Source of the DNA: Candidatus Pacearchaeota archaeon
GTDB taxonomy: Archaea; Nanobdellota; Nanobdellia; Pacearchaeales; GW2011-AR1
Assembly: GCA_016186365.1 (NCBI GenBank)
Contig: JACPLT010000031.1
Location: forward strand, 1 to 42,259
DNA: 42,259 bases
Direction of reading: 5' to 3'
The notes beneath the pieces are model-generated. The model did not search any database and had not been told where the DNA came from. It saw only the letters and a program-made list of their open reading frames with translations. The position numbers and the translations under genes were made by a program. This document shows positions 24,141 through 24,706 of the stretch, one piece after another; within the stretch, counting starts at the first letter, position 1; each line of letters opens with the position of its first letter.

Positions 24141-24181
24141 ATCCCCGGTATGGCCGCAAGGTAATGCCGGGCTTACTTTTT
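24141..24181 (+). promoter_or_regulatory. 5' leader hairpin with GNRA tetraloop upstream of NYN gene
   Basis: CCCGGTAT-GG-CC-GCAA-GG-TA-ATGCCGGG followed by TTTTT and the start codon. Confidence 0.65.
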
Positions 24182-24706
24182 ATGGAAAAAAGAGAGGCAA
24201 TTGTATTTATTGACGGAAGTAATGTTTATCATAATTCTAAATCGATAATTGATAAGCCTGGAAAGTTAGATTTTCAACATTTAGCGGAATTTATATGCGA
24301 CCATTTTAATTCAAGCTTAAAACAGATAAGATATTATAATGCTGTTCCTGATATTTCTGAAAATCAGAAAGTTTATTACAAACACATGGAATTTTTAGAA
24401 GGGTTAAGAAAAAAACATATAATTGTTAAAACCAGAAAACTAAAGAAGATTAAAAAATCGAACATTAAATTTGAAAAAGGTATCGATGTAATGATTGCAT
24501 CTGATATGATCAGAAAAGTATTAATTGAAAAAGAATGTAAGATCTGCATACTAATATCTGGGGACGCAGATTTTATCCCTGCTATGCAGGTTATAAAAGA
24601 AGCAGGTTATGAGGTAATTGTCTGCTCTCCAGAGCATGGATTTTCAAATGAATTAAGACAAGGAAACTTTAGGTATCTTGTTTTGAAAAAAGAGGACTTG
24701 AAATAA
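24182..24706 (+). CDS. NYN (LabA/PIN-like) nuclease-fold protein
   Basis: IVFIDGSNVYHNSKS, KGIDVMIASDMI, ILISGDADFIPAM; start moved to ATG 24182 so the leader hairpin is non-coding. Confidence 0.88.
   Translation: MEKREAIVFIDGSNVYHNSKSIIDKPGKLDFQHLAEFICDHFNSSLKQIRYYNAVPDISENQKVYYKHMEFLEGLRKKHIIVKTRKLKKIKKSNIKFEKGIDVMIASDMIRKVLIEKECKICILISGDADFIPAMQVIKEAGYEVIVCSPEHGFSNELRQGNFRYLVLKKEDLK

Follow-up and report, generated by a model that had tools for sequence, protein, structure and literature searches.

Predicted promoter-linked hairpin RNAs at NYN-domain genes of tiny archaea, a candidate RNA-nuclease module

Two genes encoding NYN-domain proteins, referred to here as NYN1 and NYN2, are each preceded by a short hairpin in contig JACPLT010000031.1 of a Candidatus Pacearchaeota archaeon. 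The whole contig (42,259 nucleotides; C27 in a draft genome of 0.97 Mb) was analysed and is called the window below. A preliminary description regarded both hairpins as one cis-regulatory 5' leader, possibly bound or cleaved by the NYN protein itself. The question is whether such hairpins belong to the NYN messages or are RNAs in their own right. By comparison with relatives, which are metagenome-assembled genomes (MAGs) of Pacearchaeota/Nanoarchaeota, the hairpins are a large set of NYN-linked, putative small RNA units in tiny archaea, each with its own predicted promoter. There is about an even chance that the small RNA acts as a partner by binding its cognate NYN ribonuclease and keeping it in check, in the manner of type III toxin-antitoxin (TA) or AbiF/noncoding RNA (ncRNA) modules.

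Two leaders in the window

Both leaders are present in the window with the sequences and coordinates originally given. The features of the two units are as follows.

24108-24114 (+): TATA-like box TTAAAAA of leader 1, from sequence, with an A-rich stretch resembling a transcription factor B recognition element, AGAAAAGG, immediately before it
24144-24171 (+): class A hairpin (leader 1), from folding, conservation in orthologues, covariation and model match
24172-24181 (+): U-rich spacer CTTACTTTTT from hairpin to start codon, from sequence
24182-24706 (+): NYN1 gene, encoding a 174 amino acid NYN-domain protein, from Pfam, alignment and AlphaFold2
34130-34702 (-): NYN2 gene, with the NYN domain in its 3' part and an in-frame TAA (34543-34541) that interrupts it
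34703-34726 (-): class D hairpin (leader 2), from folding, covariation and model match
34758-34766 (-): TATA-like box TTTTAAATA of leader 2, from sequence

Leader 1 folds as CCCGGUAU.GGCC-GCAA-GGUA.AUGCCGGG (24144-24171, plus strand; -18.2 kcal/mol), that is, 8 bp, a conserved G.A mismatch, 3 bp and a GCAA loop, with a U.G wobble at 24149/24166. Leader 2 folds as CAGGUAAUCU-GAAA-GGGUUGCCUG (34726-34703, minus strand; -16.1 kcal/mol), with 10 bp, wobbles included, closed by GAAA. The GGUA/UGCC core and its U.G wobble are as first proposed, in stems that turn out to be longer: leader 1 has 11 pairs plus the G.A mismatch, and leader 2 has 10 pairs. In single-sequence folding against shuffled sequence both are mildly unusual (z of -1.64 for leader 1 and -2.52 for leader 2), scores so modest that the two leaders alone prove little and comparison had to decide. 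A search of the window against Rfam at gathering thresholds returned tRNAs only, as did a search of nine loci with E up to 1, and no Rfam family matched the hairpins. The possibility that in-frame ATGs within the hairpin are conserved true starts was rejected, the frame to the NYN start being broken or stopped in the orthologues of genomes G023, G007 and G006.

Class A hairpins across relatives

A near-identical leader stands before four NYN1 orthologues from other genera. The common pattern of class A, taken from 11 sequences, reads CCC, a variable pair, G-C, U.G, A-U, U-A and a mismatch. These sequences pair at 98.3% of positions with compensatory changes at four pairs; their covariation score was reached by no shuffle, and slid controls pair at 30-52%. 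A covariance model built from the 11 finds 82 sites in 57 of the 190 genomes of the order, including 24141-24171 in the window (E=3.3e-7, the leader 1 sequence being part of the model seed). A NYN gene adjoins 68 of these sites, where about 0.1% would be expected by chance: 45 sites lie directly before a NYN gene on the same strand and 23 just behind one on the opposite strand. The other 14 have no intact NYN gene, three of them starting with a truncated one (by eye). NYN genes occur in 56 of the 57 genomes with class A sites, versus 121 of the 190 genomes overall. In a phylum-wide sample the model also matches 12 genomes outside the order, and all four of the matches inspected, which come from other families within the class, precede NYN genes.

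Three contigs from viral collections (L277, L287 and L293) carry hairpins that look like class A; in the stretches examined, none showed a recognisable NYN gene. A pattern search of viral contigs gave 21 matches, most of them probably due to chance and none beside a recognised NYN gene.

Hairpin classes and NYN clades

Sequences resembling leader 2 form class D, which also covaries (n=9). Its covariance model finds 106 sites in 70 genomes, with the window's own at 34693-34730 (E=7.9e-13, leader 2 again belonging to the seed). An intact NYN gene lies directly downstream in 57 of the 69 sites inspected, and a truncated NYN start in at least five more. Classes A and D share the GGUA/UGCC core and the wobble, so that the two leaders, first taken for one shared hairpin, have a common core within two different classes. 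The GNRA loop, once thought conserved, is not: loops include GCAA, GAAA, UUCG, UUUG, UUAG and others. Covariance-model searches for NYN association, which the preliminary description had suggested as a check, have in this way recovered many further NYN-linked sites, and its claim of a real, NYN-specific structured RNA with covariation is borne out.

Class B hairpins covary strongly and stand before further NYN clades, and additional classes were seen by eye. In the window's genome all six NYN matches have a hairpin of these kinds: A and D in the window, D on contig C11, B on C6, a UUCG unit on C8 and an antisense A behind the gene on C17. On a FastTree phylogeny of 187 NYN domains, which has some long branches, the six hairpin labels require 6 changes against a minimum of 5; in this count the minor classes were set by simple patterns, and 37 unlabelled 'other' rows are scattered over the tree. 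Judged from this distribution, most NYN clades appear to have their own hairpin class, a predicted cognate pairing. Four class D loci (L237, L258, L261 and L233) have an additional upstream hairpin of the type GCAAUC-UUCG-GAUUGU, with covariation by eye.

Promoters, antisense copies and orphan units

On the hairpin strand, 32 of the 45 sense class A sites have a TATA-like box at -35 to -31 relative to the model start, compared with 6% of random stretches. The same box is found at this distance in 16 of the 23 antisense sites (with five more at -40 to -36), in 11 of 13 class A sites lacking NYN and in 42 of 67 class D sites. Its presence in sense, antisense and orphan copies alike points to a unit of promoter and hairpin RNA rather than merely a 5' leader.

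In most of the 23 antisense cases the hairpin follows the NYN stop codon at a distance of 4-16 nt. To illustrate, NYN genes of the SNLYHSLKR type are without a 5' hairpin and instead carry a class A copy a few bases past the stop codon; read on the mRNA strand it contains C.A mismatches, and read on the antisense strand it shows the U.G wobbles, the G.A mismatch and a cUUCGg-type loop. The idea of NYN genes devoid of any hairpin was dropped, since one such family carries its hairpin in this antisense place. The strand bias of G.U pairs follows the same orientation. In sense sites 65 lie on the hairpin strand and none on its complement; in antisense sites 32 lie on the antisense strand and five on the sense strand. 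The wobble itself is kept in 11 of 11 class A and 9 of 9 class D sequences, and loop lengths vary widely with loop types being swapped. The kept wobble, the compensatory changes, the variable loops and the one-stranded G.U pairs argue for an RNA rather than a DNA site.

Other arrangements were also found. In the window's genome, locus L041 on the reverse strand of C8 (G000) has the UUCG hairpin CCCATTGTTCAGCTTCGGTCGAACAATGGG in two identical copies, both with a promoter-like box; the NYN gene follows the second only, and the first unit has no open reading frame (ORF). Tandem class D-like and class A units occur in G048, G041 and G180, and at L150 the hairpin is divergent from the NYN gene (by eye). 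Taken together, the antisense, ORF-less, tandem and divergent arrangements speak for a transcribed hairpin RNA with a promoter of its own as the element that is conserved. Some hairpins without NYN (L160, L132 and L140) lie beside RelE-like or HEPN-like genes (by eye), which suggests toxin-rich neighbourhoods.

NYN genes and proteins

NYN1, read as the longer in-frame ORF from 24164, matches Pfam PF01936 with 72.9 bits (5.2e-20; curated cut-off 24.2). Among 38 homologues the predicted catalytic aspartates D11, D128 and D130 never vary and D102 hardly does; the family also has an invariant basic motif, RKLK. The AlphaFold2 model is confident, with a pLDDT of 85.5; in Foldseek its best matches are Rossmann-like enzymes, with T5 flap nuclease at rank 4 (TM 0.45), all weak neighbours, and sequence searches of the PDB gave no match. 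PADLOC assigns its HEC-09 and NYN/LabA models and nothing from the ToxN/CptN/TenpN toxin family; NYN is the sole Pfam match. Of the two NYN genes first described, NYN1 stands as a PF01936 protein, and NYN2 is split by its in-frame TAA and hence probably decaying (a probable pseudogene).

Genomes hold from 0 to 11 NYN copies. In relatives the genes are often broken, either by a single in-frame stop of any type or by truncation, sometimes with the hairpin intact. Variable copy number, broken copies beside intact hairpins and the HEC-09 match would be in keeping with toxin-like behaviour.

Proposed mechanism and alternatives

What comparison brings out is an RNA structure, a promoter-like box at a fixed distance, linkage to NYN, an apparent pairing of class with clade, and freedom of orientation. 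In the mechanism we favour, the hairpin would be the 5' part of a small RNA transcribed from its own archaeal promoter, marked by the TATA-like box. Many transcripts would end in the U-rich stretch past the hairpin as an RNA of about 50-60 nt, and read-through in the sense arrangement would yield the NYN mRNA. The RNA may be bound by its own NYN protein through the stem, in the region of wobble and mismatch, and would then restrain or titrate the nuclease, perhaps being cut by it; a fall in RNA level would release the nuclease. Such putative binding or cleavage is plausible. In its widest form this would be a class-wide RNA-nuclease module of Nanoarchaeia-type archaea, with promoter-driven hairpin RNAs, each specific to a NYN clade, serving as trans-acting antitoxins or inhibitors wherever they are placed (in the leader, antisense or away from the gene), a proposal we hold to be evenly balanced between right and wrong.

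Several observations weigh against it. Among 40 random NYN genes without class A or D matches, a simple detector picked out a clear 5' hairpin in only about half, and the hairpin is mostly single, with occasional doubles (C8 of the window's genome, G100, G048 and G041) in place of type III-like tandem repeats. A few sites precede other genes, a protein-isoaspartate methyltransferase-like one at L093 and a FEN1-like one at L109 (both by eye), which could mean a broader regulator. Part of the in-frame stops in MAGs may be sequencing errors. The terminator that separates RNA and toxin gene in type III systems would here be a candidate at most: the U fraction after class A hairpins is 0.50 versus 0.33 at random, and a run of at least four U follows in 31 of 45 sense but only 11 of 23 antisense sites.

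The alternative closest to the preliminary description is autoregulation in cis, in which the NYN protein would lower its own expression by binding or cleaving the hairpin of its mRNA leader. The 45 sense class A sites and the NYN-bearing class D sites do lie in a predicted 5' leader before the start codon, the hairpin class tracks the NYN clade, and both the 3'UTR (untranslated region) stem-loop of Regnase-1 and the 5' leader of archaeal L7Ae offer precedents. Only the sense copies fit, however. The antisense sites fall outside the NYN mRNA in their structured orientation, and promoter and structure are kept in ORF-less units and NYN-less orphans; together with the divergent case these leave a purely cis-acting leader without support, and we consider the explanation possible and rather unlikely. 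Antisense and orphan copies, the RNA's own promoter and the other genes downstream of some orphans would agree with a NYN protein that acts as maturase of a hairpin small RNA, the RNA being the effector elsewhere by base-pairing or as a guide, and RNA trimming is known from a CRISPR-associated NYN protein (PMC11346440). Loop and flanks vary freely, however, and a conserved single-stranded segment of the kind expected of a guide was not seen, which makes this role improbable.

Archaeal operators typically occupy a fixed place just after the start of transcription. The inverted repeats have such a place relative to the predicted start, with the TATA-like box at a fixed distance, as would a DNA operator bound by a repressor. 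An operator is nevertheless highly improbable, given that the spacing of the arms varies widely as stems lengthen, that G.U pairs are conserved on one strand and that the loops are often RNA tetraloops. As for a chance or generic hairpin or terminator, common in AT-rich genomes and not specially tied to NYN, the window does contain other hairpins and the single-sequence scores are modest; the concentration of model sites beside NYN genes already refutes this, and by a strict criterion 5' hairpins occur at 19 of 46 NYN genes versus 7 of 95 other genes. The promoter-driven RNA that restrains its nuclease is the reading we retain.

Other features in the window

A short hairpin at 31974-31954 (-) lies just before a gene at 31943-31518 (-) that resembles an IS200/REP-type transposase (by eye); apart from one beside a tRNA, this is the one other clear case of a gene with a 5' hairpin in the window. 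The tRNA matches at 1869-1990 (+) and 27654-27551 (-) are longer than usual (Rfam), were missed by ARAGORN and probably contain introns, and a homing-endonuclease-like ORF overlaps the first of them with its 3' end. At 36115-38912 (+), what looks like a single FGAM synthase (PurL) gene is split by a frameshift, whether natural or an assembly error, into two ORFs that overlap in different frames.

Comparison with known systems

A literature search of incomplete coverage found no description of a pairing between hairpins and NYN genes, and the set is apparently undescribed so far. Regnase-1 (Zc3h12a), which acts on a stem-loop in the 3'UTR of its own mRNA (PMC8241994), likewise combines a PIN/NYN-type RNase with a stem-loop in its own message, but is eukaryotic, zinc-finger assisted and directed to a UAU-type loop. 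Archaeal L7Ae recognises a stem-loop in its own 5' leader (PMC6298567). Like the proposed NYN partner, it is an archaeal RNA-binding protein; unlike it, L7Ae is a ribosomal protein without nuclease, and its element is a k-turn. The antisense placement seen here also sets the hairpins apart, as we know of no antisense copies of the L7Ae leader. The CRISPR-associated NYN ribonuclease of B. fragilis, which trims single-stranded RNA without sequence specificity (PMC11346440), shares the nuclease family and a prokaryotic defence context, although no dedicated hairpin RNA has been reported for it.

Closer in logic are the type III TA systems and AbiF with its ncRNA, in both of which an RNA restrains a partner RNase (PMC5086642, PMC12373285). 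AbiF/Abi_2 with RCd22-type ncRNA has a structured ncRNA upstream of, and co-transcribed with, an RNase gene, and the RNA binds the protein as an antitoxin, a counterpart only proposed here; its nuclease is of the Abi_2/AbiD/F family and related to Cas13, the RNA motif is another one, and antisense placement is frequent in our set. The type III systems ToxIN, CptIN and TenpIN similarly place an RNA element and then an endoribonuclease gene under one promoter, form cognate RNA-RNase pairs and have a patchy, multi-copy distribution. Here, in contrast, the nuclease is NYN (PIN-like) rather than ToxN-like with a toxicity that is putative, the RNA is a simple hairpin rather than tandem pseudoknot repeats, and antisense and orphan units occur. 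The module logic looks type III-like, yet we would not file it as type III, the toxin family and tandem repeats of that type being absent, and there is a real chance that it represents a new module class. If the proposal holds, NYN would be a new nuclease family and the hairpins a new RNA family among RNA-controlled nuclease modules, extending these to tiny-genome archaea, where they have been little studied. It would also point to what the numerous NYN genes of these genomes, so far unexplained, may do, and offer many natural cognate and non-cognate pairs in which small-hairpin recognition by PIN-like nucleases can be tested.
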